Below are positions 9,882 to 62,400 of a stretch of 64,000 nt of DNA, piece by piece. Location: NCBI RefSeq assembly GCF_043641665.1, contig NC_092181.1, positions 5,742,921-5,806,920 on the forward strand, read 5' to 3'. A model generated the notes under the pieces. The model did no database searches. It was not told where the DNA came from and worked only from the letters and a program-made list of their open reading frames with translations. The stretch comes from Enoplosus armatus (taxonomy: Eukaryota > Chordata > Actinopteri > Centrarchiformes > Enoplosidae). Both the position numbers and the translations under genes were made by a program. Numbering within the stretch: the first letter of the stretch is position 1; every line of letters starts with the position of its first letter.

Positions 9882-12800
9882 TTACGGGACCTTTTCAATC
9901 CCACTGTTCTTGTCGTCATTCCTAACTGCTGTTTGCCCACTCTCGGTGGCAGGCATGTGGTTGTGGTGCAGAAACAAGATTGAGTCCAAACTTTCCGGTG
10001 GAATGTTGGCTCTCTTCCTATATGTGGCTCCCGCTCCTTCCTGCACAAAGTCCTGTGCAGCGTTACCTGCCACAGCCGGGGCAGCCAGGTAAGCCCGTGC
10101 CACTGTGGCCAACAGTGGAAACTGCACTGCCTTCGTCCTCCACCACTGCAGGGGTTCCACACCCAGCGAAGCCCCCTTGTCGGCTCTAAAAACAGACATC
10201 TCCATGTCTATAGACTCCTCCACAGAGCTCTGCCTGCTCTTGGGGGCAGAGCAGAACAAGTCTCCCAGGAGGAACTCCATACCAGAGAGCCCGCCCTGAG
10301 AGCCTGGATCTGCCAGCTCGCTCTCATCAGCCTCCCCTGCATCGCTCTCTTCATCTTCATCTTCGATCTCTTTGAAGTTGATTGGGCGGGATTCTTTGAG
10401 GCGCTTGCTCCTCCGCAGGAAGTCACTCTCTGACTCTGGGGACCCAGGTGAGGGGCTTCTCTTGCTCTGGCTTTGCTTCTTACCTTGGCTTCTCCTCCTG
10501 TCTTCCTTCACAATCCTGACAGCCTCTTTCTTAAGCCAGTCAAAAATCGCTGTCTGCTCCTTGAAAATAATTACAACAAAAAGATTTAGTTTGTGTTCCA
10601 GAGTGTCCTTCGCTTCATACATTATTACAACTATGATTGGGGATTAAATACTCAAGTACTGAGAGCTGGCATCAAACATGCCTGTTCAGATTCATAGTCT
10701 GGCTTACAGTACTTCTTTGATCGAATTCTTTGATCAGATGTTGCAGATTTTGACTCATTTCATTTAGGCAAAGTTCTTCTATGGCTGTTTATGTTGAGAC
10801 ATTTATCAGTTAAGAAGTTAGGCTTCTTTGTTAAATGTAAAAATGGTTTTGTAGAAAAACAAGTTTCTATTCTAGTAGGGTATCACAAAGTTTGGCATCG
10901 GTACTGAAACGTATTCGCACTAGAATCATAACATTTCAAACAATACCCGACCCTACCCCTAATCACAACCATTCTCTCAAAGTAAGCTGCAATCATTAGC
11001 ATGTCTGGCTAACTTGTTTACTTTTCTTTAAGAACGCCTTGTTCACAACTACCACGTCCACTGAGTAGTATTTCCTCAGTGTGTGAAAGCTGCTATCGGA
11101 GTTTAGGGTAACGTTAGCTTAATTCGCTAGTTAGCTGTAGCTGATAAAATGTGCTGGTCACAGTCGTCATTTCAGACGGAAACATCGGCAGTCGACGTCA
11201 AGAAAGGCTTTTGTCTACCTCTGTCTGAAAGGACCCATTATTTCAAAAATTCCGAAGACTTTCAACTAAATCTGCCACTGTTATCATTGTAAACTGCAAA
11301 TGTGCCACGCAAGTACAGAAGGCTTGACAGCTTGACAGTAACTAAGGGGGTAGGGTTTAGCAAATAGTCAAATTCCCTGCATTTTAACTTTACCGCTCAC
11401 CTTCTCCTCCATGAACCCCAGCCCATGGAACTGGGGGTCGAGGGAACATGCCACACAAAGAACCTTGTTGACAACAGGGTTGTCGTAACAGCTCGCCAAG
11501 TTCCGCCTCATCATCCTCTTTACTTCCTTCAGGATGGATGATGAATCTCCCGGCCTCGACATGAGATGGCGGGAGAGCAGACCGGTGAGAATGGGTTTAA
11601 TGAGGGACAGACGGGGGAATGCCTCCTTGGTAAGTGTTCGACACGCCACGTCCAGAGGTTTGAGGACCAAACACAGCTCCTCCAGAACCTTCCATTCAGA
11701 TCGCAAAATGGTAACGCTCGTTGAGGATGTGTTGGAGGTGGAGTTTGCGTGGCAGCTGCCAGATGAACTGGATTCTGAAAAAGTGTCTTCTTTAGACAAG
11801 CCCTCACCTTTAATCTCTTTTATCATATCACAGAAAAGGCTTTTATGTTTGATGAGCGTGCTCAGTAGAGGGAACAGCTTATTCCATGTTGGCCGGCTGT
11901 GAGCCCACGACTTCAGTTCTGCCTGTTCTTGTTTCGTCAGGGTCTGCAGCAGACTCTGGGCGTGGTGCTGATACAAGCCTTTGTTTTGAGCAAGCGGCAG
12001 GAACAGGGTTGAGAGAATACCCTGGAATTGGCTAAGGGTCTTGGAGATGACAGGGTGTGACATCACTTCCTCAATGCAGCCTTGCACAGCGCTGAAGAAA
12101 CATGGCACAGATGGTAGTCCTTCACTAGAATGGCCGTGGTCTGAGCCATGTGGTTCCTCAGGTGACACAGAGTCATCCCTCTCAAGAAATGTTGTTGAGT
12201 TCGGGTGAGGAAAGCTTCCTGCAGCCTCCCCACCTTTCTCACTCTTTATTGGCCTAAGCCTCATCTTGTTCCTTCCCTCCCCTCCCAGCAAGACTAGATT
12301 AGGCTGGGAGACTCCCCACTCCTGGGCCATCACTTTCACTTGAGCCTCTACTGCTCGAAGGCTGTTGTCTTTCACCCCACTCTCTGCCAGTCTTTGGGTT
12401 GCCAGAGCCAGGTTCTGAAAACTAAAATTACAGTCTATGTAATGTGCCCAGAGGGTGAGGTACCTCTCAGTGTTACCCTGCCAGTTGTGGAACCAAATAT
12501 CCACACTTAAAGTGACAAAATGAGGAACTTCCCTCTGATGGCTGGGAGGTCGCCCACGTCTCCTGGGCTCAAACTCGATGGGAGCAGTGTAGTCAGCTCT
12601 CTCCTCGTTTTCTCCGCTTCCCATTTTCCTCCTCAGCAGCTGAGCCAGGCTCGCCTTACCTTTGGTGTGGTGCTCTTTCAGGAGGTTCTCCAGCTGACAA
12701 GGTGAAGGCAGCTCCTTGTAGGAGGGCAGGAGGGTGTGGATCAGCTGTTTGAAGCCTTCCCCTTCTACCAGAGCTGGGGGCTGGAGATCCATGATGAGAA

Positions 12801-15800
12801 AGTTGGCAATGGCATCAGTCACATGAGCAGACAATACCAGGGGGAATGTACTGACCAGACCGCTGTTAACCATCGCTGGCTGTGAGCGTTGTTGACCTTT
12901 TGTGAAAAAGAACAAATCTTCAATCAGCAAATAAGCTTCAAAGGTTTGACAAAACATTTTTACAAAGCATGTTTAAGTTGCAGATCAATTTTGAACCACA
13001 CTAGATACCAGATTACTTGAAAAATAATTTGAAAGAGCTATCTGACTCACCACAGATTCTGAGCATTAGCAAAATTCAGGTTTTTACAACTTGGGTCTTA
13101 TTTTAAGCCATGTTAGTGGCGAGGCTCTATGACACTCTCTACAGCAGTGTTGGTTGGTCAGTTGGTTAGTTCACCACTTCAGAGTCCAGACTGAAATATC
13201 TCAACAACTGTTTTGTTGTCAACTGGATTGCTGTGACATTTTTAAAGACACTCATGGTCCCAAGAGAATGAATCCTACTGGCTTTGGCGATCCCAGCAGG
13301 TCAAATATTTCACTTATCCTGAGAAATACCTCAACATCTATTAGATGGACTGGCATCAAGTTTGGTGCACCCAATCATGATTACAAGAGGATGTATCCCA
13401 ATACCTTTGGTGATCCTGAAACGAATGACATTCCCATCAGCCTCAGGTGTACTTTCTGTGTAGTGCGAATTAGCAATCAACACATGCGCTCACCTTTAGA
13501 GAAGTTGAGATCATTTGGTTTGTTTACAACCTGTCTGACTGCTCCTTTCTTGGTTGGACTTTGTTGTAGAGATGTTACTCTAGTTCCCAGATATCAGCAA
13601 TTACATTGGTGAGTATAATGTTAACACAACTGATAGGACTGATGGTGAAATCTATTTAAGTTGTAATGACCCAGAACTGTCCTTTAACATTGTGACTTTG
13701 ATAAGCAAAGCGAACAGGGCGTAGACAGTAACAGTTACCTATTGTCAGAAGACTCCGATCCTTGTTACCGTCACGTGGTCTGATGTGGTGCTTGTTGGTC
13801 AGGTGGTTTTGAAGATCCACTGCTCCTCCCCCACAGCCTACATGTTCCCCACACAGCTTACACACCACAGTGCTCCGGTCCAGAGGCCGACCTGTTGGGT
13901 CCGGCTCAAACCCAAAAAAGTACCACGGGCTGTTCTGTGTGGCATTCGGGTTACCCAGCAGTTTCTCAGTTCCAGGCATAAAATCGTACTTTTCCAACAG
14001 ATGAGAGCTCGGGGACGGGAAGGAGATCATGGAGGAGGAGTGTAAGACAGTACCAGAAACCGTGCCTGAATCACTAGCTGTGTCCAAGTTTGACATTGTC
14101 GTCACGTCACTGATGACAAGCATGGGGCTCTGTGATTGGCTGTGGTCTGACCAAAGTGAAGAGCTGCTGGGCTCTGGGAGGGTGACCAATTGGATATCCT
14201 GCAGGAGGCGCAGAACTGTCTCCTTATCTCCAACTTCACATTTCACATTGTCACCTGTATCTCCCCACCAAAAACAAATGCATAGGATGTTGGCTAATTT
14301 TAGCAAGCTAAATGTGTACATTCAGATTAATAGTTACAATTAAATTTAATTCTACTGACAGTTGAAAATGAATGTGGAAGTGAAAAACTAATATGGATCT
14401 GCTAGTCTGCGTCTACCATGTGTCATTCCATGTGTCAGTGAGTGAACTCACCCATCCCGAGGCCCAGCAAGGTGGCATAATCCTTGCCGATCCAGACCCT
14501 GAGCTCTGCTCCCTCTGTGATGGGCTGGGAAACCCTGTAGTAGATGTGACGGTAAAACTGGAAGACGACCAGGTTGTGTTCCTCCTCACTGCTGGTGTAT
14601 GTTACATACCTGAAACATGGAGCAAATAAGTATAGTATGTTACTGTGACCAGGAAAGTAGGAGTATCAGACTGCATTATGAACAACATAAAAGCAGAAGG
14701 GAGAAAAGAAACTACTTTAACAGGGAAACATTACTTGAATCAGTAAGAACTGCCCACCTCATCCAGTTAGATTTGTTTTCATCAGCAGCATCGACGTAGA
14801 CAAAAGCAGCCTCATCCCTGATCTGGAGATGGGAGCAACGTGTATGTCAACTATCTTTATGCCCAGTTCTCTATGGAATTCCTGCTGGTTATCAACACAA
14901 GTCACGTTTCTGCCATAACTTGACTTTCAAACCTGTCTACTTACAGCCCAGGCGTATTTGAGGTTGGTTGGCATTTGTCCTCTGCACACTTCTCCTACAT
15001 ATGGCCCAAACATGACACCCTGCTGAAGTTGACACTTAGCGTACACCTTCATCTCTCCCATCTGCTCTTCACCAGAGGATCCAGGACCAGCCATCCCCGA
15101 CCCGACGTCCCCGCACAGGCACAGGCAGGAAGGCAGTGACAGCACCGCCCGGGAGGGGCCGCCGTGGAGCCACGGCTCTCCAGGTGGCAGCACAGCATCT
15201 GGGACATAGTTCTGGTTTGAAGCAGTCTGGAGAAACGGAACATCCTCGAATAATTCTTCATGGTTTAAATCCAATCCTGGGGAGATAAAAAAAAAATAGA
15301 GAGAAATAATTAGTCAAATGTGGGATTAAGGTGAGATCCAGAGGAGGAGGAGGCATGTTTACTGTTTCTTTTGTTATTTTTGGTAACTAAATGGAGTTAA
15401 GCAACACAGTAAATAGAGACAAGACCTTTAGAATGTGTTACTATACATTAGATATATTACATAGCAAAGACAGAAGCTTTGAGTTTGTTTTGATTCATTT
15501 TATTTGGTCCCCCACCAAGAAAAATATATGTTTCTTTAGCGCCTTGCATCCAGCATCACGTTTGTTCATTCTGACTTTCCGTAGACATTCATCTGAACAT
15601 TTAACCCGGACTGTAATTACTATGATAATGAATCCATTGCAGCAGTGCACAATGTGTGTGCTTGAGTGAACTTCTGTTAGGGGTGCCCACTTGTCTGGTG
15701 GCAGACCTGCAGGGCCAGCTGAACTGCTCTCTGGCAACATCTCACTCCGCTGGTTACGGCTCCCGAGGGATGGCGTGTGGTGACTCTGGAGGGAGCTTTC

Positions 15801-17004
15801 AGACCTGTTATAAAAATGATATTAAAGTCATTTCAGCAGGTGTAATGGGATACATGTAAATTAAGATGGCAAGAGGTGAATAAAACTCATCCTACCTGTG
15901 CGCACCGACAGGAATAATTTCTCTCCCCTCCAGTCCTGCGTCACACAGCTGGTGAAAGGGTGTGCTTCTGACGCAGTGATTGGTATAGATGACTGATGTG
16001 CCGGCTTCTTTACACATGCGAGCCAGCATTGAGCCCAGATAGTTGACTCCGAGTGGGACGTGGCTATACCACATTTCATCCGTTAGCTCCCTCTTAGGCT
16101 GCAAGTAAAGGGCGGCTGCATTGGACGGGAGCTTGCTGAGGTACTTCAAGAGGGAAGTAATGGGACAGAACTCGCTGCCTGGCTTCTCAAACATAGAGCA
16201 TCGGCCCTTCTCCACATGAAGTTTTGTCTCATCGCCAAAGGATAAAGTGCAGTATCTCAGTCCCCGCTCGTCTTTTCTGATTACAAATGAATCTGGCTTT
16301 AGATTCCGGTTAGCCTGCTTCCCTCTGCGGCCGAAATGCACCTGTATATCAAACCAGACTTTGTTCAGAAGTCCCCTTGGGGTGCTGGTGTCCATCGCAC
16401 GCGAGTGTCTGAGGATGCGGATATCATCAGGAGACAGCGCCTGATGGTGTGATGTTATGTCTCGACCGGACTTCCTAATTCTCTTGAGCACTCCCAAGAA
16501 CACCTTGTTGGCTGAGGTGAACTCAGCATCTCTCATTAAGCACACGGGGCGGCTGACAGGAGGCTCTTTGAAGTAACGGTTAAGTCCAGCTCTCAGTGCA
16601 ATGTAACTAGCGATCCCATACAGCTCACCTTTGCTGTTCCGTACCGAGCCATAGAAGTGTCTCAGCAGCCTGTTCAGCTCCGTCTTCTCCGCTGTGGTCA
16701 GGTCCACCTGAAGCCCCCGGGACTCCAACCAGCCAATGAAGCAATTCACAGCCCACGTCGTCTGTTTCTTTGTGACCTTACTTATTTCAGTCCTGCTGTC
16801 TTCAAGCTCGTCCAGTTCCAAGTCTGATACCATTGCATGTCTGGAAATGTCAGTGGTATTCACCCCACACTCTTCCTCTTCTTGTGACTCATCCTCTTCT
16901 TTCAGAGCGACCTCATCCTTAGTTGTCACATCAGGCTCAAACAAATCCACATGTTCACGAGACTCCCTCAGGTCTGCACACATAATGTTAGCTGGTAGCT
17001 CCAT
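9882..17004 (-). CDS. Fusion gene: Crypton tyrosine-recombinase-like + PR/SET + BED zinc finger + hAT transposase-derived protein, 8 exons
   Basis: I assemble eight coding exons (5' to 3'): 17004-15896, 15804-15707, 15276-14945, 14822-14758, 14609-14452, 14254-13739, 12896-11401 and 10559-9882. Phases match at every junction, the sum is 4,452 nt, and the reading frame is open for 1,483 residues. An in-frame stop precedes the ATG. Residues 1-110 are acidic. Residues about 110-402 are a DUF3504/Crypton recombinase-like domain (FGRRG, TNHCVRST). Residues about 430-590 are a PR/SET domain (FGPYVGEV, NWMRYV, ELRVWIGKDY). A BED finger follows (CKLC...HLTNKHH), then a hAT body (VTLSVDIW) and hAT C-terminal dimerisation region (WWRTKAVQFPLLATVARAYL). 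Likely a nuclear DNA-binding regulator, by inference. The weakest junction is the exon 2 donor, CAG|GTCTGC. If it is not used, exon 1-2 would be a separate Crypton-only gene and the rest a PR-BED-hAT gene with an unidentified start. I know no family member with exactly this order. Confidence 0.72.
11030..11370. repeat. Dispersed repeat copy in the last intron of the fusion gene
   Basis: The stretch with GCTGATAAAAT, CATTTCAG, GCTTTTGTCT, CTGTCTGAAA and GTAACTAAGGGGG follows the same order of short blocks as 47640-47890. The two are diverged copies of one element in the same orientation. No coding potential is visible. Confidence 0.6.
13140..13490. repeat. Dispersed repeat copy between BED and hAT exons
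   Basis: Sequence such as TCCAGACTGAAATATCTCAACAACT, TTGGTGATCCTGAA and CATTCCCATCAGCCTCAGGTGTACTTT is shared with 27120-27340 and, more weakly, 62240-62370. The copy holds a repeated inner block: two versions of CTCAACA(a/t)CT... about 130 bases apart. This family often ends in GTTAGCATGCTAACATT in fish genomes. It lies in the intron between the fusion gene's BED and hAT exons. Confidence 0.65.
14452..15276 (-). other. PR/SET domain of the fusion gene (three exons)
   Basis: Three exons (15276-14945, 14822-14758, 14609-14452) encode a PR/SET domain of the PRDM type, closest in feel to PRDM9/PRDM11. Landmarks are AVLSLPSC at the start, GVMFGPYVGEV, the split FVYVDAADENKSNWMRYV, EEEHNLVVFQFYRHIYYR and ELRVWIGKDY. 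In PRDM9 the last motif is VWYGDEY, and its first Tyr is needed for histone methylation; here Ile occupies that place. Methyltransferase activity is therefore doubtful. The domain is not followed by a C2H2 finger array, unlike most PRDM proteins, but by a BED finger. A zinc knuckle before the PR domain is not visible. Confidence 0.85.
15707..17004 (-). other. Crypton-derived tyrosine-recombinase-like module (exons 1-2 of the fusion gene)
   Basis: This part resembles the DUF3504 region of KIAA1958, ZMYM2-4 and QRICH1, which are known domesticated Crypton recombinases. Visible landmarks are LLNKVWFDIQVHFGRRG (position of the first catalytic Arg), LGVNYLGSMLARMCKEAG, then TNHCVRST (His-x-x-Arg) and GAHRS. 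After GAHRS, related proteins have a SLxSY stretch carrying the Tyr nucleophile; here exon 2 reads SLQSHHTPS, so His sits where Tyr is expected. The module is therefore probably unable to cut DNA and may serve in DNA or protein binding. The N-terminal 110 residues are rich in Glu and Asp. If exon 2 is not spliced at 15707, the frame continues to a stop at 15495-15497 with an AATAAA at 15499-15504, which would give a Crypton-only protein of about 437 residues. Confidence 0.75.
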
Positions 17005-20000
17005 CAGCTGTGTTTTGTCATAAAATGTGAGATGAAGAGAGCACAGGTGTTAGGTTTTGGCCATGTAAACAAAGCGGAGTGATACCGCTCAAGTAGTCAG
17101 GTCCCGGTGCTATACGGCGATTATACCACAGTCGTTATCAGCTCGTATTGAAGAGACGGGGTCAGTCTGTTTAGAAAGGGGATTTTAAACTGCTAAAGAT
17201 GGCGGCTCTGACTGGCAAATCATTGATTGCACCAACCGCATAACTGTCCTTATTTACGACATATCACACCAGCGGGACAACAGCGACATATCCCATTCCA
17301 AACTACATTTTCAATAACAGCATATTCCCGTACGTGTCTGCCAGCTCCTTACAACGGGCTGCGTGAATGACTGTTTAGGTGATACCATGGCAACGACCAG
17401 GGAACGGGACTGCCGTAAAACATGACTTCTAGCGCTTGGGTCGTGTTCTCTGTGCGCATGCGTACAAGCATCTCAGGTGGTTAGGCGAAAATTAACATTC
17501 TACGTTGTATAGAGTGCGATTCATCAGTGCTCCTAAATGTGACATGAAAATGACATTATGATTGGAAGAACGTGACATTAGATAACCCCCAATTTGAAGA
17601 AATGCACACCGTTTTGCTGAAAAACTTGCAGGCAGGTGTTACACAAACGACTCTTTACAGTAACGAATATTCTTCATTATACACTCTTTGAATGTGTTTG
17701 ACAATCACAATGCATGGTCGGAATTAAATGTTGCATTCATAGATGTGACAGACTAAATGCACTCACATCAGTCTGGGCTAGTCTTTAGTTAAAGTAAAAC
17801 ACATACCGTGTGGGTATGGCATACGTTGTGCTCTTAAGTGTGTTATAAATTACCAAAGAGTGTGCATATACAATAATAGCATCAGGGTCAGGGACTACTT
17901 TTGCATCTTTAACTGCTCCCCGTTGCAATGCAACTTCATAAAACCCAAAGAAGTGCCACTCTGCAATGGCATTTTGTCAGTTACGAGGGGAATAGGGTGA
18001 ATGCAGTTGTGGCAAGGGCGGTCAGTGCAATAGGACTCAAATTTGATGCACACCTCAGATTCACAATAATTGCAGTGAAAGCGCTGATTTTGGTGGTGAA
18101 TCACCTTGAGCCTCAAACAAAGCTCCAGAAGTCGAGGAAGAAGTGGTCTCGAAGAAATCTGCACGATGTCGACGCCTCAGATGACTTCTTAAATTCGTGG
18201 TATTTCCACCTTTTGCCAGCACTATTTTTCGGCATAGGCGACAAACGGCCTCGCCAGAGTTTAACGGTTGTCCCTTTTCGTCTGCTTTCAACCCGAAATA
18301 CAACCACACGATAGACTTGCTTCTGGGTTTGCTGATAAGATCCATGTTTCTGTGGCCCTCCTCTGCTGCTCTGCAGGCTGTCCGCTGGCTGCAGAACTGC
18401 TGCAAGAGGTACGGTGGATAGAAAGGACACCCCGTGGAAAATGACTTGTATTTTGTTGCACTATTTTAAATGCGTGCCACAGTATCACGTCAATGGTGAT
18501 GAGAACGCTCAAAGTGGAAAAAGTACATGAGACTCAAATTAATTTCATAATTACCAGCGCGTTTTATTGTGAACATATTTGAGTAAAACTACGAAATTAC
18601 AATAGAAACATACTCCATGTTGGTATTCAGTTCTACGTGCCAGTTTAATGCGCCAGTACTAACGCTGTAACAAAAAGCCCAAACGCTTCCAGTGGCTTTC
18701 ATAAAATAACACATAGGATGACTGCCATTGAATTGGTGGTGCACCTTCTACCTGCTCTGTTTCTATTTGTGGACCAACGTCAACACACTGCGACGAGTCA
18801 GGGTTGCCAGGTCCTGTTGTTAACAAATTTACAGTCCAGTTCAGTAAGTCCAAATATTATTAAAATGTGTACCTTGTGTACCAAATGTCTGAAAGGTTTT
18901 ATGTCCCCAAAATGACCCCCCCCCCCCCCCCCCAAAGTATTTGAAATAATTTCTGATTCACTTTCCTTTTTGTTGTGATTACAAAGTATGTAATACTTTG
19001 ACATGTGTTTAATCATGCTGGTTTTAAAAACAAAAAAAATAATTCTGAGTATTTCATTTTTGAACAGATCCCTACCAGCAACTTCAGTTTAAATAACAGT
19101 CTGCTCTGCTAACCTTGATGTTGTCCATTTTCTCTTTCTGTTGCCTCCTCTTTTATTGAATAATGGAATAAGTTATTAAAAGTTATTAAAATAACAGAAA
19201 CATAAACGGGCCTTATGAAAGGTAGCTCATTCTGTTGGGCAGAAAATACCAATCAGAATGGACTTCTAATTGTATGCGTTTGTTTTAAATAAATGTAAGC
19301 CCGAGGCTGGATTACCAAGCGGATGTGTAAGTCTTTCTGTCAGGTTAGAATTAGCTAACCAAACAGACATCCAGACGTGTAATGTGCTTTAAAGGGCAGC
19401 TAAGGAGGGAATGGGCAAAATTATGGTAGCAATGAGCAAAATGGTAGATCTTTTTGATGGATGTTCCCACCTAGAGATAAATTCAAATTGTCAGAATACT
19501 GGTCCTTCCTTCTCCCTAATAAAACTTGTCATTAAGCTCTTACACATATAAAAAAAAATATGACACCAGCCACTATGTGACAACAGAGACGCACGTCTCA
19601 TACCAGCGCTCCCCTTTTTAACTAATTTACGTGAAACTTTCTAATCTGGCAACAACGGGGTAACCACCACGCGGACTAAACGCAAATCATCCGCACCGAC
19701 TGCGCATGCTCCAGATGCCAGAATGATGTTTGTTTTGAGGAGAGACGAAGTACGTGAGGAAACTCGCCGTTACGCACATATATATTACGTCTCTGAAAGA
19801 ATATGAAGGCAGCCAAATGGCGTTGAACTCGTATGGGAGAGACCAAAATGCCTGCCGTCAAAGGCGGAAAGAGAGAAAGCTGAAAGGCAGGAGCGGCCAC
19901 AATGAATACAAACTAGCCACTACTACCGGCCATGGTGTGGCTTTGGAGTGGAGCTGGCGATTGTACATTTGTGTGGCATGAAATAATCCTGCGTTTTTTT

Positions 20001-21122
20001 GAGCCGTCACTGCATATGCATTACCAAGGTTGTTCACATAATTAAAGCATGTTCTAGTATGTGTTGCAGTGAGACTGAGGTGTTGCAAGCTGGAGTGGAT
20101 CTCTGCTCCTCTGCCTGGCCTGGAGAGCCATTCTCTCCCCCCCCCACACACACATGCTTTACTGCACGCAATAAACATTGCTGCCAGGAGGAAGCAAACT
20201 AGATTTGTGGTTGTTCTTTTTATTTTGCTCACTTGTTCTGAATAAATATTCTTTAGTGTGTTGAACTAAAGTGAGTGAGTGTTGAATACATGTTTCGGTT
20301 TTCAAAGATGACAGTTTTATTATGCGCTTAAAAGTATCACAGCATGTTGCAGATCCAAATCGACAACTTGTACTTCGATAGATCTCCTCTTACAACTGCC
20401 TCTTTCCAGGGTACACGTCCCCCATTTTCACTGAAGAAATATTTGAGGTTGTACCGGGTGTTGATTGCAGGCCGTGGTACTTGTGTTGCTTTGGATCGAG
20501 TTGGCAAACAACGTTATGGTGCATTACCGCCACCTACTGGAATGGAGCGTGGATCGTGAAAATGCGCATGCGTGGAGAGTCACGCAGACGGACGCGGACC
20601 CTCAATTGGTTTATACTGCCACCCACAGTTTGGCGTCAGCTATTATACCAAGTGAGTTTGACTCGTGCTGTCGGCTCGTACACATCCTGGGAAGCTGCAG
20701 TTGTTCCTAAATGTCTGCCACATATTTCAGGTAAGCGCCAAACCCGCTGAGGATGAGCCTCCAACATTCATATCTCTATATTTCATGGCAGAAGTCGCGA
20801 CAGGCTTTCTCGTAGGACTACACGTTCCTTCATGCGTTAAATGGGAAGGTCACCCGACTTCTCTGTTTATCTAAAGTTAGCTTTAGCTTAGCTTCTTGCG
20901 GTTAGTGGCAGTAATTGCTTGGTTGCACGCACTGACGATAGCGGCTAGCTTATGGGTAGCCACTGCTAACAACAACCTTCTGGCCTCGCCGACTTGCCGT
21001 AGCACGCCGTCTTCTTCGTGGTGGGACAGTTGTTGCCATGACGACCCCACTCGCAAGTTGTCGGTGGTGGAAACTGACTTGAGCTTAAAACTGCAGCTAC
21101 ACAGAAACTCACACGGATAAGA
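17005..21122. other. Intergenic region between the fusion gene and the coiled-coil gene
   Basis: Apart from the BED-finger fragment at 18061-18405 I see no supported gene. The first 450 bases before the fusion gene's ATG are richer in G+C and CpG (for example around 17100-17160 and 17330-17470) and probably hold its promoter and 5' untranslated exon. A C-tract lies at 18917-18933. The stretch around 20505-20545 (CATTACCGCCACCTACTGGAATGG) looks like part of a common fish mobile-element end. The last 400 bases before 21123 are the 5' region of the next gene. Confidence 0.5.
18061..18405 (-). pseudogene. hAT-transposon BED-finger fragment (ZBED1-like)
   Basis: The minus strand encodes a BED finger of the kind found at the start of ZBED1-like hAT transposases: KSIVWLYFGLKADEKGQPL, then CRLCRKIVLAKGG, NLRSHLRRRHR. 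The Cys-x2-Cys and His-x4-5-His spacing is intact. The frame stops about 35 residues after the finger, and no transposase body follows on the lower-coordinate side before the fusion gene begins at 17004. It is most simply a truncated hAT element. A donor-like AAG|GTGATT within the frame (near 18111) leaves a small chance that it is a first exon. It lies 1 kb upstream of, and on the same strand as, the fusion gene that also has a BED finger. Confidence 0.6.
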
Positions 21123-23339
21123 ATGGCTTCTTGCCTGGTCCCGGACTGCCCGGCCGTCATGGTCGCTCTGGAGCATTTAAAGGAACTGGACAAGCAGCTG
21201 AAAGAGGAGGGAATACCATTCTCGCCTGAAGCCAGCCTCCATCTGACAGAGATAACGGCTGCTATCACTGAACTGGAGTTGGACCGGCGTGCTGCCCATG
21301 AACATTTAGAAGTGGAGACCATAGAAAACAGCAAACTAAGACACCAAATCAACAATATAAGGGAAAGAATGAGCCAGGAAATCATGGCTGACGTAGCAGC
21401 AGCCCGGGCGTCTAATGCTGAGGAGATAGAGCAGCTGCACAAGGAACTCAACACAGTTTCTCAGCTACAAGAAGCCACTGTGAAGAGGCAGGAAGCCCTC
21501 TTCAGACAAAATGAAGCTCTGCACCCAGAGCGAGAGCAGATGAAGGCCGAACAGGAGGAGATCGTTGCTGTTCTGAATGATCAAATCACCTTAAAGTATG
21601 GCTTGCAGCTGCAGCTGGATCAGACACAGGAGCAGATAGAGGAGCTGAAGTCCTGCATTGCTGCAGTCGAACAGGACAAGATAACGCTGCAGCAAAACAT
21701 GGCACTGGAGAGAGAGGCCTTCACTGTGAAAAAAGACAACCTGTCCAGAGAGGTGGACCAGGCTGAGGGGGAAATTAAGCAGCAGAAGCAAGAGATCAGG
21801 AGGAACAGAAGAGGGTTGGACAGAGTTAATGACAAGAAACGAGAGACCCATGACCGTCTGGGCGAGCTCATGATCCACATGGCCAACCTGGAGAGCAGTG
21901 TACGAAGACTGACAGAATCTCGGTGCCAGTGTGAGAAACAGCAGGAGGGGGAGACACGGAAGCAAAAAGAATTGAAGCAACAGAGAGAAACGCTGAAGAA
22001 GGAGTTGTGTGACTTAGGGGAAGCCTTCAGTATTAATGTCCAGCGTCTTAAAGAGGAAATTGCCACAGTGGAAGGTAAAATAGAGGAGGGTCGAGCATCA
22101 AGGTTGCTCTGTCAAGACTCCCTGGCTCAAATCTGTGAGGTATTCAAGCGTCAGGGTGATGACGAAAGCGAAATGATGGCAGAGCACTTCCACGTCTCGC
22201 AGCAGCTGGAGCGGTCCAAGCTGCAGCTGGAGGAGCGCATTGCCTCCATAGTCAAACACAGCAAGGAGATCAAAGAGATGGACAAGCAGATCGTGGAACT
22301 CCTGGAAGTCGACACGATCAACAAGCGCGTGTTTGAGAGGAATCAGGAAGAGATGTGCGGTAGTGTAGATACAGAGAAGAAGAACATCAGCCATTTGGAG
22401 GAGGAGAAGAGGCAGCTAAGGGGGCTCTTGGAGGAGGCGAAGAGGAGGCAGGAGGAGCACGTGGCAAAGATGACCTCTGATATCAGCAACACCAGGGGGA
22501 GATACCTCGAGCTGCAACAAGAGGAGGCCGCACTCCAGCAGCGCCAGCCCGAGAGCGCAGATGCCGACTTGCTGATGAGCCACGTGACCCAGTGCGAGGT
22601 GGAGAACAGGCAAAAAGAGACCAAACGACATCAGGAGATGGAGCAGTGCACTGCAGAGACGGAGAGCATCATGAAGAGCAACGAGGAGAAGCAGAGGGAG
22701 GTGGATGAGAAAGAGGAGATGCTGCAGGAGGCGGAAGCGAAGTGGAATGAAGAGCAGTCCAGGCACCAGAGACTGAATACGCTGACCTCCGAGCTGAAGC
22801 GGAAGAGCAACGAACTGGAGCTGTCGATTCAGGGGCTGAAGGAGAAGACCAGCTCCCTGCTTCAGCCCAAAGAGGACATGAAGGCAGAGCTGGAGGAGCT
22901 GCGAGAAAGTTACCTGGACACGCTCGACAAGCGGGCCTCGCAGCTGAGAGCTGCAGAGGCGAGCATCTATAACAATAGCGTGAAACTGGAGCAGGTCGGC
23001 GTGGAGAACAGCAGGCTGCGTCTCTGTATCACACAGATGACAGAGGACGATGGCAGCGCCAGGCAGAACAAAGACAGATACTGGCAGGAGATCCACCGCT
23101 TCAAGCAGGGCACCAAGGCCTTGTTTGAGAGTTTACAGGAAGCATGGAGGGAGGACTTATTGGTAACTCAGGACTGTCAGAGCAGCGACGGTGTTCTGTT
23201 GGCATCGATGAGTGCCACGTTGCACCACCTGAAGACCAGGAGACAGCAGTTAGGGAATGTCAGCACACTCCTGCACCGACTCATGTTAGACTTCAGCAAA
23301 CGACTGGGAGATAAAACAACCATGGAACAGCAGAGTTGA
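21123..23339 (+). CDS. ccdc175: Long coiled-coil protein, probably coiled-coil domain-containing protein 175, intronless
   Basis: A single open frame of 738 residues with a stop codon (TGA) in frame upstream of the ATG, so the start is secure. Except for the first 50 residues the protein is predicted coiled coil: Glu, Lys and Gln make heptads throughout, for example ELKSCIAAVEQDKITLQQNM and EEKRQLRGLLEEAKRRQEEH. The beginning, VALEHLKELDKQLKEEGIPF...LELDRRAAHEHLEVETIENSKLR, resembles what I remember of CCDC175, a poorly studied protein with mainly testis expression in mammals. Other long coiled-coil families (CCDC178, outer-dense-fibre or ciliary proteins) are the alternatives. Human CCDC175 has many introns, whereas this copy has none in 2.2 kb, which points to a retrocopy or to intron loss. 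The frame is fully open, with no disabling change, so it is probably functional. AATAAA candidates are at 24298-24303 and 24868-24873. Confidence 0.68.
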   Translation: MASCLVPDCPAVMVALEHLKELDKQLKEEGIPFSPEASLHLTEITAAITELELDRRAAHEHLEVETIENSKLRHQINNIRERMSQEIMADVAAARASNAEEIEQLHKELNTVSQLQEATVKRQEALFRQNEALHPEREQMKAEQEEIVAVLNDQITLKYGLQLQLDQTQEQIEELKSCIAAVEQDKITLQQNMALEREAFTVKKDNLSREVDQAEGEIKQQKQEIRRNRRGLDRVNDKKRETHDRLGELMIHMANLESSVRRLTESRCQCEKQQEGETRKQKELKQQRETLKKELCDLGEAFSINVQRLKEEIATVEGKIEEGRASRLLCQDSLAQICEVFKRQGDDESEMMAEHFHVSQQLERSKLQLEERIASIVKHSKEIKEMDKQIVELLEVDTINKRVFERNQEEMCGSVDTEKKNISHLEEEKRQLRGLLEEAKRRQEEHVAKMTSDISNTRGRYLELQQEEAALQQRQPESADADLLMSHVTQCEVENRQKETKRHQEMEQCTAETESIMKSNEEKQREVDEKEEMLQEAEAKWNEEQSRHQRLNTLTSELKRKSNELELSIQGLKEKTSSLLQPKEDMKAELEELRESYLDTLDKRASQLRAAEASIYNNSVKLEQVGVENSRLRLCITQMTEDDGSARQNKDRYWQEIHRFKQGTKALFESLQEAWREDLLVTQDCQSSDGVLLASMSATLHHLKTRRQQLGNVSTLLHRLMLDFSKRLGDKTTMEQQS

Positions 23340-30399: not shown

Positions 30400-34015
<3,616 letters not shown>

Positions 34016-36577: not shown

Positions 36578-45732
<9,155 letters not shown>

Positions 45733-54416: not shown

Positions 54417-56677
54417 TCATGACTGGGCTGTCACCACCACCATAGTCTCTGTGGCTGCAACAAACAAGCACAACACCAGTTTGTATGGCAGAAATGCATA
54501 TGTTCAGTGTATGTGACTATTATTTTGCAACATACTTATCCTAGAGTTTAAATGAGTAGAATGGACATGGGCAGCAGGGTTTTTAATAGAGTGCAATAGA
54601 GCATTTAAAATGTGGCTATCTGAGAATAACACCTATCCTGAAGATGTCCATTCTACTGTCTCTAGTTCTACGAAGACGGCTGTGTTTATAGGCATGCTGC
54701 TTTTAACCGTTTACCTTCTTAACTGTACTATTACATCACTGAGCAGCTTTTTACAGTCCAGATAGACACCTTTGGCTCTGTGGACACAGGCAGAAATACA
54801 TCTGGTCAGAGCCGAACACAGAGAAGACTCAGATTATATTGTCTTTTAGCATCATTGTGAAATTGCTCAACCCAATTTGTGTAACATTTAACTACATATC
54901 CTTTTATTCTCATGACTCAAAATAGCAGGAAGTTGTAAACAAAACATGTAGACGTGTTTTACATTTTAACATATGCTGCAAGCTCAGTCTTATATACCTT
55001 TCTAATTAGGTTTGATGAGGTGGAGCTTTCCAATTGAAGAACCCTTTATCATAAAGATTGAGGTCTTTGCTGCAGCGGTCATCATTAAAGGCAGATGTCA
55101 GCGCACAACAAAGGAAACACATGTTGAAAGTCTCCACCTCCACCCTAATTTTGCCGTGTGAGTGAGCGAGAACCCTGACACTGGCACACTTTAATGGAAT
55201 GAAGTAATTATTGTTATTAGTCACATCTGTGTTTAACACGTCAGCTGTGTCTGCTGTGACAGAGATCTATAGTGCTGCCCACCGTGCCCACACCATGACG
55301 TGTGATGTCAGACTATTACTACTATTACTATTACTATTACTATAAACTACAAAGAATGGAAATCAGATCCTGCTTACCTTGGTCAATTATTATTATTAAT
55401 AGTCAATTAAGTATTGTCTTACAGGGAGACACATGCTGAAATTTTGGGTATAATTCATCTTTAAGGCTTCAAACAGGATTAATTAATAAATTATGTAAAT
55501 TCTTAATGCAGGTAGTGAATATAATACTAATACAAAAATTATCTGGGGAGGCAGAAAAGGGGGAGGGTATTGTAGCCTTTTACTGAAGGGAGGGTAGTAA
55601 AACCTTTTGGGGAGACCAGGGGAGGGTCCTTTTTAAGCCATGTTTTATCTTAATTCAGCCTCGGGGACTACGGAGAGGGTCCAAAGTTCTGTCATCATAT
55701 ACTACTATTTCCTTAGTGTAGCTATGATGGAGCATTATAGATCATGCTAAACTATGGGGTGTTCTTACTTTGTCCCTCCACCAGTGACACTGCCTCCTTG
55801 TCCTCAGCTCCCTCAATGGTCAGTTGCCCTCCCAAAGCAGCAGGTGGCGCCACCTCCTCTGCCGCTGATGGAGCAGAGTGGCAGGAGTGGCAGTGCTTGG
55901 CCTCATGTACTGGAGCCTCTGATGTAGATTCTGGTTCAGCAGCTGAAAGGACCTCCAGGTCTGACCCGGAGGAGGCTGCTGCCAGCTGAGTCGCCTCCAC
56001 AGCTGCTGCAGCTTCACTGTGTGTAGCTTCGAGTGCCTTTGCTGAGGCTTCAGCTGCCGCCTCCTCCACTGATGTCTCAGCAGCAGGCGTTGTCTCACCT
56101 GGTGATGTGTCATCCACTGGAGCGGCTTCAGCAGTGGTGGTGGCCTCCTCAGCTGGTGTAGCCTCCTCAGCTGGTGTAGCCTCCTCAGCGGGAGCACCAT
56201 CAGGTGAGGCCTCTGTAGAAGCGACAGCCTCCTCTGGAGCAGCTCCAGGGACCGGAGCCTGATCTTCAGCCTCAACCTCACCCACCTCCTCCACTGTCGG
56301 GGCTGAAGTTGCAGGTTCTTCAGGAAGAAGTGTAGCTGCCTCCTCCTCCTCTGCTGCTGCAGGAGAAGGTGTCTCCTCTTCAACCACCTCTTCAGCAGCT
56401 GGAGCTTCAGCATCATCAGCACCAGCCTCTGCAGACTTCAGCTCCTCCTCATTCACTACAACCGCCGCCTCTTCAGCTGCTTCTTTTTCTACCACCTCTG
56501 TGGTTTCCTCCAGGACTTCAGGCTCTACTACCTCCAGTGTGGACTCCAAACCTTTTCCATCTTCCTCTATTTTCTGGACAGCTTTCACCAGACTCGTCTC
56601 ACCAACAGAAGCAGCTGCAATCTCAACTGAAGAGCCGGCAAAGATCTTCACAGCTGTGAGCAGATCTGGCAAAGACT
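54417..56677 (-). CDS. Distal 3' exons of an mgarp-type Ala/Glu-rich protein (alternative end or duplicate)
   Basis: Two exons: 56677-55769 (acceptor CCTTCAG, donor CAAA|GTAAGA) and 54454-54417 (stop TGA at 54417-54419). They encode about 315 residues starting ESLPDLLTAVKIFAGSSVEI, then a low-complexity region rich in Ala, Glu, Thr and Pro with four AEEATP-like repeats, then HEAKHCHSCHSAPS, and end TTETMVVVTAQS. The incoming phase is 1, the same as the phase left by the mgarp exon 62746-62818, so this can splice to it by skipping the exon at 59408-59892. It could instead be a tandem duplicate with its own first exon; a short ATGAACTGGACAG|GTAGTC at about 57270-57285 would fit the phase. Composition resembles MGARP, but nothing in the sequence identifies a function. 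Confidence 0.6.
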
Positions 56678-57014
56678 CTGAAGGACAGGAGGACAGGAAG
56701 TAGTGGCTGAGAGGTTTGAAGTATAGTATACAATATAAGTTCACACATTCCAGCATCTCTTAATATCGGAGCTTCATGTGAAGTAAAAATGCTTTAACAT
56801 CAATGGCTTCAACTCTATTTGAAGCCATGTGAAACATGACTGTTGTATAATGTAAACTTAAATTGGTGTGTTGCATTTTTCTATGCACCATACTGTCCCC
56901 TTACAATTTAAAAAAAATAATCTGCAACTACTTCCATTTGTAAAAGTTAATCAATTAAAAATGCCAAATATTTACTTGTCATATGTGAGGTTTTGCTGCT
57001 TTTGTGTTTTAAAT

Positions 57015-59407: not shown

Positions 59408-62400
59408 TTATGCAGCCACCTCTGCAGCAGCGGTGGCCTCAGCCTCGGGGGCTGCAGAGACGGGCTCCGCCTCAGCAAGGGAAGCAGGGGGGACTTCATC
59501 TACTGCTTCCGTACCAGCGCTCTCTACTGCAGGGGCCTCTGCGGCAGCGACTTCCACAGTGACCGGAGCAGCTTCAGCAACCTCCTCTTCCACCACAGGT
59601 GGAGCAGCTTCTGCGACCGCTGGCTCAGCTGCAGCCTCAGCAACGACCACCTCAGAGGCCACGGCGGCTGCTTCCTCAGACACGGCCTCGACAACAGGTT
59701 CGGCAGCGGTCTCTGCCACTGGTTCTGCAAGAGCAGGGACGAGCTCTGCGACGACCTCAGTGGCCGGTGCTGCCTCCTCCACTGGGGCGGATTCAACTGC
59801 TGGAGCTCCTGCCTCTGGCTCTGCCGCTTCTGGTGCAGGTGCTGCTGCCTCTGGCTCAGCCACTTCTGGTGCAGGTGCTGCTGCCTCTGGCGCTGCCAAT
59901 TAAGAGGTTGCGAACAGAAATTATAGCAACCTTTCTGAACTTGTTTCTCTTCATTGCCATGTACATCAGGAAAAACTAATTTGAAAAAAAGAGTGCAATG
60001 TACTTCAGATTTCTAGGCCAGTGGCAAAAGATTTGGCCACATTTGCAACACAGCTACAGTCATCAGTCGTTAGGGTAAATATTTCCTTGAGCATACAATA
60101 TTCAACAGCACTGGGAACAATATTTGGTTTTAAAAAAAAAAAAAAAAAAAAACACGCATTGCTCTGCAGTAATGAGCTCTTGTTCCTCCAATCCTCTCAA
60201 CCACAACTAATCTTTCATGGCACTGGAAATCCAAAGAGAAAGTGCAGAAATCTAAAATTATGGCCACTTACAGGTTCACATAATCCAGTTGGGCAATAAA
60301 ATAAAAAAAAAAGTCAGATTTGAACTACTTGGCCTCAGACTCCTGTCAACAGGTAGCATAGGGTTGAAGGTCAAGAGCTTATGTCTGAGGTCTAAAAAAG
60401 GTGAAGCATATGATGAGTAAAGTGAAGGATAATCCTTAATCCCAACATGTCATCCTCGGGACAGAAATATAACCGCTGACCTCACTGAAGCTAGTAAGTA
60501 TTAAAACATTTGCCAAAGTTTAATAGCTCAAGCACAAAATCAAAGCTAAAAAGCAGAGCTAAAGTGTGGCTTTACAGATTCTCATTAATTGAAGTGTGCC
60601 ATTACTGAATATGCACTTACAGTCAAGCAGGCAAATATGTTTTTAAAAATGCTAAATAGGAGTCTGAAAGGAGTGCAGGAACTGATGATGACGCAACTAC
60701 AATACGTTGTATCAACTGTGACTTTGAACGCATAGAAAAAGTGAAACCTGACAATGTCAGCATGACTATACGACCATGTCGCTTGGTCTGCCCACCACTT
60801 TGATCTGGACTGTACAAAATGTATCGGCAATTCATCCAATAATTGAGATATTTCAGACATTCACGGTCCCCATTTAACTTCTACTGGTGCACAAGATAAG
60901 CGATTCAAAAGGTCGTCGGCTCGAGTCCCACCGGGGTTGTGCTTTTGAAAAGATGAAGCGGATGCAACAGTTATTCGAACACCTACGCGTGAACTAAGTC
61001 CATGTTTGTTAGGAGGAGAGTTGATCCCGCAGTGGAAACTGGGCAAATCCCTACAATTTATCTCACCCATACATAAAAATATAATAGTGCCAAGGTCTGC
61101 AAGTCAGGATGGAAAAGCAAAAGCCTCAGCATGCTAAAGGTTACTAGCTTTAGATAGGGAATGTATGATTTTGATGTTACTGGAAACTGTAGTTCTATTG
61201 AGCTACAGTGTTAAAAATATGTGACGTAAAACCAGGCTAAGATACTAAACTACACTTGAGAACTTCCCCAAAAATGTGACAAATTTTGCCCCGACAGTGA
61301 AGGTTATTACTGCAGTCCTGTGTCTAACAGAGTGCCTCAATCTAATGCCGTCTACACTGCAGCTCAATATCCATTAAGCACATTATGATAACATGTTTTC
61401 TTGAGCCTCATTTGGAAATTGTTGAGTTCCCACGTCAGAACATCAGAGTGACCGTTTTCACAAGCAGCCACATAAAGCAAACAACCCACCAAATTGCACT
61501 GTAGTGATACTCTGATGTGTCCTCAGATTGATGAGTCAGGACAATATGATCCTGGATCACAATCACTTTAATCACCATCACTATGTGCATCAAGATGTTT
61601 GTGTCTTTGTTTCCTGGACATTTTTGCTTGATTACATAATGAGATCACTGGCCAGTTTAAAGCCAAAGTAGTATAATCTCCAGCACTGTAGGGGGGCAGA
61701 GCTTCATGCTCCATTTATAACCAAAAACAACACTTCCAGGATGCATGTACACAAGCGAACCAGTGGCAGCCGCTGCTTATCCCCATTACAGACTAGTTAG
61801 CTGCTCTGGGCGCAGAGCCATGATCTCTCCGGGCTCAAACTGGCTGAATAGACAAATAATTTGCAGACAGAAATCAAAACAGACAGGCAAGATAAAGCTA
61901 TTGAGAGTGATCGTTCTACCGTGTTGGAAATTTGCGTGGTGAAGCCAGAGCCAACTCCGAAATGCATCAAAATTCTCTTTTTATCCACTTTTGTTTCTTT
62001 CAAACGGAAACATTTTGGTCCCTAAATCAGTGCCACATTACAAAACCCAATTAAAACCTGGCTGTGAACTTTGAGGTTGGCAGATTCAAAAGAGTATTAA
62101 GAAATAAAGACTGAGTGCAACTGCTGAGAAAAAAAAAAAGTTCCACTTTCTTCTGTGTGGTACCATTTATTTATGAGGTCTTAGTTTTTAGCCATGCTAG
62201 CAGTGTGGCTTTAGGGATGGCGACATCGGTCTACCGCTTTGGTCCAGACTTAATCTTAGAAACTATAATTTTATAATCAGATTGCCATGATGATACTCAT
62301 GGCCCCCCAAATTATAATTGTGATCCCTTAATTTTTCAAATACGCATCAGTTGTATTATGTATTTTGCGTTTAGTGCCAATTAACAAATGTGGGCATGCT

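Follow-up and report, generated by a model that had tools for sequence, protein, structure and literature searches.

A single-copy fish gene whose PR-hAT body joins a BED or a Crypton-derived head in frame, probably as alternative first-exon isoforms

Crypton-derived DUF3504 domains are known as optional parts of host genes. According to the published account of KCTD1, the long isoform of that gene carries a DUF3504 head on a host domain, the short isoform is without it, and a Crypton lying upstream gave the new transcript variant (PMC3212892). The section of the same account on birds describes a conserved Crypton frame in an intron of ATF7IP with a predicted fusion, for which that paper reports no messenger RNA (mRNA) or expressed sequence tag (EST) (PMC3212892). 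For host-transposase fusions, capture by insertion and splicing is the model of Cosby et al. 2021 as outlined in PMC12062965. Here, a comparable locus was analysed in a stretch of 64,000 nucleotides (nt) from Enoplosus armatus (NC_092181.1, positions 5,742,921–5,806,920 of the forward strand), henceforth called the window, to which all coordinates are relative. The locus probably represents one single-copy gene, in which a body made of a PR domain, an inner BED finger (BED2) and a hAT-derived part is joined in frame either to an outer BED finger (BED1) or to a two-exon Crypton head lying in an intron; the two forms are likely alternative-first-exon isoforms, and the products are predicted to be catalytically dead, chromatin-bound regulators.

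The preliminary description of this DNA had put eight minus-strand exons with seven in-phase junctions and 4,452 nt of open frame into one gene. This model could be rebuilt from the window as proposed (Table 1): all seven introns are GT-AG, phase is kept throughout, and the frame encodes 1,483 residues with a single stop at 9882. The Crypton, PR, BED and hAT modules named there are all at the locus, as judged from Pfam matches to DUF3504, PRDM2_PR (on separate exons) and Dimer_Tnp_hAT, the inner BED finger being weak in Pfam. Its C-C-H-H pattern is present in aligned homologues and absent in Nerophis. No transposase family was matched in the Pfam scan of the long exon 7, and its kinship to hAT is judged from the dimerisation region next to it. 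Exon 1 runs through 369 codons without a stop in its own frame, against 19 and 27 stops in the others. In addition, an upstream exon encoding BED1 splices in phase to exon 3, yielding a BED1-PR-BED2-hAT protein of 1,161 residues without an inner stop, and the same junction is used by homologues (FEAQ/GLDLNHEE and like, the slash marking the junction). In both forms, BED1-PR-BED2-hAT and Crypton-PR-BED2-hAT, host and transposase-derived domains thus stand in one frame, and the hAT body is single copy in the genome of the window.

A search of about 5.8 billion proteins retrieved at least 125 homologues (E-value ≤ 0.001) among the best 7,994 scored candidates, of which the best 120 were listed. 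Full-length homologues in other fishes, which the preliminary description had looked to as support, are among them, the best being from Siniperca chuatsi (93% identity over 100% of the query). Heads were called as BED1 at ≥ 45% identity over ≥ 45 residues near the start, and as Crypton-A, i.e., the Crypton of the window and its close kin, at ≥ 60% over ≥ 60 residues. By these thresholds, BED1 was found in 77 of the 120 homologues, Crypton-A in 16, both in one (P0004) and neither in 28. BED1-PR-BED2-hAT is hence the commonest form among the listed homologues and, as it extends to salmon, pike, cod and smelt, the older one. Because the BED1 exon lies upstream and BED1 is the commonest head, the Crypton exon pair is placed in the first intron of the commoner gene form, and the most plausible reading makes the Crypton an alternative head on a BED-PR-BED-hAT gene that is older.

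The junction between Crypton exon 2 and exon 3 was found at the identical residue in 15 models from 15 species among the 120 listed (P0001–P0011, P0014, P0016, P0022, P0036; one species each), with the whole Crypton domain in 11 of them (P0001–P0011). The models come from different annotation sources (NCBI LOC models, UniProt entries, and submitter annotations). Several of them are numbered by NCBI as isoforms of a single gene, a status that usually requires transcript support. In Notolabrus, LOC117815987 comprises an isoform with a partial Crypton-A and an isoform with a distinct Crypton (Crypton-B), the latter joined to the same PR exon. The body itself was probably transcribed and spliced in other fishes: eight proteins of 986–1,196 residues from the 'lgn' source, which we take to consist of assembled public reads, derive from contigs of 3.4–4.9 kb, too short for a gene like the 8.5-kb one of the window in unspliced form.

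Several observations weigh against the fusion of Crypton head and body. In the remaining four junction models the Crypton is incomplete: P0014 is without its start, P0016 and P0036 skip the core, and P0022 has BED1 before the last stretch. Other joins or pieces of the Crypton occur in Labrus mixtus, Dissostichus, Eleginops, Tautogolabrus, and Lycodopsis. None of the eight spliced-looking lgn proteins has a Crypton head, and the exon-2 donor departs from consensus with C at +3 and T at +4, while the preceding CAG and the G at +5 fit. In five species (Seriola lalandi, Toxotes, Cebidichthys, Centropristis, and Parambassis) the Crypton is annotated as a separate gene. A search of the protein database aimed at the Crypton-PR junction (27 matches) retrieved no bridging fragment, a weak negative of little power, as no lgn fragment spanning BED1-PR was recovered either and most matches were single unspliced exons. 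As a side observation made by eye, exon 2 seems to be translated in a different frame in P0028 and P0013 (Cyclopterus and Lycodopsis), with a downstream donor before exon 3.

These points bear on the alternative of two genes, in which an independent domesticated Crypton gene would be nested in the first intron of the BED-PR-BED-hAT gene and the fused proteins would be annotation chimeras. The Crypton-only models fit this alternative, as do the off-consensus donor, the missing bridging fragment and a poly(A) signal of the Crypton's own at 15504. So does the extension that arises when exon 2 is read through: Crypton-only models end in this tail in Seriola lalandi, Toxotes, and Cebidichthys and in a diverged tail in Centropristis; among the products, a related tail (LPPDKWAPLTE... 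and like) closes P0121, P0123, P0125 and P0133, P0130 has a diverged one, and P0134 stops earlier. By eye, the end of the tail resembles the C-terminus of the free Crypton protein P0137, and P0133 comes from a 1,629-base contig in which exons 1 and 2 are already spliced. Given the poly(A) signal and the conservation of the tail in other fishes, a Crypton-only product is likely. Two wholly separate genes are nevertheless unlikely in view of the same in-phase junction in 15 species and several annotation sources, the numbered isoforms, and the second Crypton spliced to the same PR exon in Notolabrus. The preliminary description had counted against its own model transcripts ending at about 15495 in every tissue together with a separate first exon for the PR-BED-hAT part, or homologues with the halves on different chromosomes. 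Of these, the separate first exon was found (BED1, 18345–18105), along with annotated Crypton-only models; halves on different chromosomes were not, as the Crypton-only and PR-hAT genes lie on contigs of identical length, and so most likely share a contig, in Toxotes, Cebidichthys, Centropristis, and Parambassis, four of the five species. We conclude that Crypton-only product and fusion are both likely, the fusion, whose junction rests on annotated models, being less certain than the body.

With alternative heads on one body as the preferred reading, the claim of one gene with one main product, Crypton-PR-BED-hAT, stood in part. The intact frame and splice sites, the full-length homologues and the junction models of 15 species agree with it, but the BED1 exon has the same phase, BED1 heads most listed homologues, and Crypton-only models are annotated. 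The fusion as the sole form of the gene was rejected because of BED1, and a single main product of this kind is very improbable.

The Crypton head is conserved as much as the hAT body. Among 13 Crypton-PR-hAT proteins (that of the window and 12 others), mean pairwise identity was 81.2% for the Crypton, 86.1% for PR, 84.2% for BED2, 81.6% for the hAT part, and 63.0% for exon 2. Searching the 580-Mb genome of the window with the Crypton head gave seven matches, namely the head itself, one relative of 33% identity and five short fragments; inner stops interrupt three of these seven. The 33% relative, next best by score, holds an open frame of 603 residues and is presumably KCTD1. Using a free Crypton protein as query gave 11 matches, eight of them with stops, one of the eight being the window's own match run into the intron. 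As the other matches are short, distant or broken, only one close intact copy appears to survive among remnants, and its percomorph distribution is that of a conserved single-copy orthologue kept over a long time. A chance exonisation of a non-functional, decaying insertion would suit the lost catalytic tyrosine and the many listed models without a Crypton head, but can scarcely be credited: the open frame has stayed intact, its mean identity among percomorph families (81%) matches that of the hAT body, and the other genomic matches are mostly short or broken. Broken Crypton remnants were observed elsewhere in the genome of the window (G000 C17, C38, C25, C11; L004, L018, L003, L019, L021, L022). 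Separately, 19 matches with PF15794 (zgc:174877 and kin, in cyprinids and loaches) belong to a separate DUF3504 gene, 51–57% identical to the Crypton of the window and possibly another domestication.

The catalytic tetrad of Cryptons is given as R-H-R-Y (PMC3212892). Its tyrosine is absent in all 25 family members, which have His, Pro, Val, Gln or Leu at this position (His in the window), and is present in all seven free Crypton relatives examined and in the wrasse Crypton-B (P0026). The tetrad His and the second Arg remain together in 21 of the 24 family members with letters there (the window reads HCVR), and the first Arg in 19 of 19. The human DUF3504 genes are described in the survey cited as having lost both the tyrosine and the second Arg (PMC3212892); since the second Arg is kept, the Crypton of the window is not one of these genes. 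With His in place of the tyrosine and only one close intact copy found, it does not resemble an active Crypton.

The PR domain is nearest to PRDM9 and then to PRDM11 (PDB profile, 1.9e-30 and 7.7e-25). Tyr276, Tyr341 and Tyr357 are named as active-site tyrosines of PRDM9 in the source consulted (PMC9861158). Counted along the alignment, they fall on GPY, FYR and WYG. At the Tyr357 position, 12 of 12 homologues have another residue (Ile in 11, Val in one; Ile in the window), while the Tyr341 position is Tyr in 12 of 12, and that of Tyr276 is Tyr in the window and Phe in several homologues. The three tyrosines of a PRDM9-like methyltransferase are therefore not complete, the third being replaced. 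In the hAT part, position 572 of Hermes (Glu; match at 0.0012) aligns with Ala in exon 8. We take this Glu to be catalytic, and at this position, the one examined of the DDE triad, the residue of an active hAT transposase is missing. Because of the lost Crypton tyrosine, Ile or Val at the place of Tyr357, and Ala at Hermes 572, all three enzyme activities are predicted to be lost.

For the predicted Crypton core, the best fold match by E-value was QRICH1 in the Zincore-ZFP91-DNA structure (2.2e-6), followed by Cre (1.5e-4). Template modelling (TM) scores of the PDB fold matches were low (0.33–0.40) and the mean predicted local distance difference test (pLDDT) value of the Crypton exon model, used for the core only, was 59.5; both figures belong with the counter-evidence given above. 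QRICH1 was also the only PDB sequence match of the Crypton head at E ≤ 0.01. If the gene works as its parts suggest, promoter choice would pick the head, BED1 or Crypton, and hence the target. On the Crypton side, the weak-looking exon-2 donor would compete with the poly(A) signal at 15504, giving either fusion or Crypton-only protein. The Crypton domain may then bind DNA or, as the related QRICH1 does within Zincore, zinc-finger proteins on DNA. Dimerisation of the isoforms would fall to the hAT C-terminal region, and the PR domain, without its Tyr357 equivalent, could recruit partners instead of methylating.

The BED1-bearing body is present in smelt (Hypomesus, Stomiati), salmon, pike, and cod and should accordingly date to the euteleost ancestor or earlier. 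No homologue outside euteleosts was among the matches listed, which is no proof of absence. Crypton-A was found in Eupercaria (Siniperca), Carangaria (Seriola) and Ovalentaria (Parambassis, as a Crypton-only model) and forms one clade of 17 rows in the tree with a support of 100/100. From this distribution and the single clade, the simplest account is one insertion that preceded the split of these three groups and was followed by losses. In the free Cryptons P0138 and P0149 the sequence stops at VSGHR, just where exon 1 does; as the intron position is shared, the intron between exons 1 and 2 is probably the Crypton's own. The proposed history is thus that a BED-PR-BED-hAT gene would predate the euteleost radiation, that, before the main clades of percomorphs diverged, a Crypton of a teleost family would have inserted into its first intron on the same strand, and that the second Crypton exon would have gained a weak donor, so that transcripts could run on into the PR exon.

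Further heads were found on the same body. The wrasses Notolabrus and Labrus bergylta carry Crypton-B; the copy in P0015 is 36% identical to the Crypton of the window, and the B copies are 64% alike compared with 80% for the rest of the protein. Three pipefish genera share a BED head which is 80–83% alike among them and 26–33% identical to BED1. A Myb/SANT head on a hAT body without PR domain is common to three other syngnathid genera, Phycodurus (P0116), Syngnathoides (P0119) and Stigmatopora (P0120), the heads being 75, 61 and 52% alike vs 77, 60 and 55% for the rest. In P0116 and P0119 it runs straight into exon-6 sequence and skips the PR domain. Other heads comprise BED fingers in sole and in a Halichoeres isoform, a pogo/Tc5-type helix-turn-helix (HTH) in Monopterus, and in tunas a head without a Pfam domain. 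The pipefish and wrasse heads are conserved between genera, which speaks for their being real; heads seen in a single species may be annotation chimeras. In the tree, Crypton-B was placed outside Crypton-A plus most free relatives (starred branch), which would favour separate captures of A and B, but the approximately unbiased (AU) test does not reject both as one group (p = 0.145). Since the BED1 and the Crypton head are both conserved in spiny-rayed fishes, this is likely a gene that acquires new ends, binding DNA or proteins, from transposons. Going further, it is a tentative idea that the phase-1 acceptor of exon 3 serves as a docking site used repeatedly by fish lineages for new, mostly transposon-type heads (BED1, Crypton-A, Crypton-B, other BED fingers, HTH, and the tuna head; Myb/SANT joins the next exon down). 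These heads would direct a single PR-hAT body to new targets, perhaps the very transposons from which the heads came. If so, the locus could be called a natural, modular source of regulators. Provided that the other heads in fishes are real, stepwise module swapping in one gene would be visible along dated lineages.

Table 1 Features of the BED/Crypton-PR-BED2-hAT locus in the window
Feature	Positions	Strand	Evidence
BED1 first exon; ATG at 18345, 241 nt, ends in phase 1	18105–18345	-	Pfam zf-BED 1.2e-10; in-frame junction to exon 3
Crypton head exon 1; acidic N-terminus and DUF3504 / tyrosine-recombinase-like domain	15896–17004	-	DUF3504 9.8e-12
Crypton head exon 2; covers position of lost catalytic tyrosine (His here)	15707–15804	-	Donor CAG/GTCTGC
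Read-through extension of exon 2; alternative Crypton-only C-terminus, TGA at 15497–15495	15495–15706	-	Open reading frame 15495–15821
AATAAA signal; would end Crypton-only transcript (putative use)	15499–15504	-	Sequence
Exon 3; shared phase-1 acceptor for both heads, pre-SET part and PR start	14945–15276	-	PRDM2_PR 5.8e-6 (just under curated cut-off)
Exon 4; PR domain	14758–14822	-	Spliced model
Exon 5; PR domain end, Ile at place of PRDM9 Tyr357	14452–14609	-	PRDM2_PR 3.1e-15; PDB profile match PRDM9 1.9e-30
Exon 6; linker and BED2 finger	13739–14254	-	zf-BED 0.015, below Pfam cut-off; C-C-H-H in aligned homologues
Exon 7; hAT-derived body	11401–12896	-	Spliced model; hAT kinship via neighbouring dimerisation region
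Exon 8; acidic stretch and hAT C-terminal dimerisation region, stop at 9882	9882–10559	-	Dimer_Tnp_hAT 1e-7

A candidate ninth exon at about 13579–13494 was dropped, as its acceptor gives an in-frame stop at once (checked by hand from the sequence). Elsewhere in the window, Exo_endo_phos exons and a partial Ets domain (3e-5, just below cut-off) were found at 33017–34012 (+) and 36581–38381 (-); we assume the former to be nocturnin-like and the latter ELF-like, in a neighbourhood presumably resembling human 4q31. An open frame of 753 codons at 21078–23336 (+) is coiled-coil-like by eye and without a Pfam match. Ala/Glu-rich open frames with short tandem repeats at 55755–56759 and 59411–59899 (-), also without a Pfam match, seem to us to resemble MGARP. 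A perfect GT microsatellite of 64 copies occupies 31319–31446.

That such a gene has no precedent, as the preliminary description suggested, is overstated for the alternative Crypton head, which KCTD1 already has as an optional DUF3504 part on a host domain, and holds for the combination. The host part of KCTD1 is BTB/POZ without PR, its DUF3504 lies in one exon instead of two, its origin is dated before sharks branched, and the published passages on it name no second transposon class (PMC3212892). The Crypton in the ATF7IP intron is likewise a conserved frame inside a host intron with a predicted fusion, and differs, as described, in having no PR or hAT part. With QRICH1, ZMYM2-4 and KIAA1958 the Crypton head shares a domesticated DUF3504 domain that has lost the catalytic tyrosine; the human genes also lost the second Arg, whereas here this residue and the His are mostly kept. 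Such a domestication offers a comparison for QRICH1 in the Zincore complex. PRDM9 and PRDM11 have the closest PR domains of known structure; the C2H2 zinc-finger array that usually, though not in all PRDM members, follows PR was absent in the Pfam scan, only a BED-type finger standing there, and Ile or Val stands in place of Tyr357. ZBED genes share the BED finger and hAT-derived body (several homologues are named ZBED1-like) and lack the PR domain between two BED fingers and the alternative Crypton head. Among the literature matches listed, titles and abstract openings described no PR-Crypton or PR-BED-hAT gene. SETMAR is a precedent for joining a SET-type host domain to a transposase-derived part; it carries one mariner transposase, whereas the window locus holds remains of two unrelated classes, hAT and Crypton. 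The novelty lies in the combination of modules and in signs that other fishes have further heads. Capture of a single transposase domain by a host gene is familiar; here remains of two unrelated transposon classes stand around a PR domain, the second of them optional.

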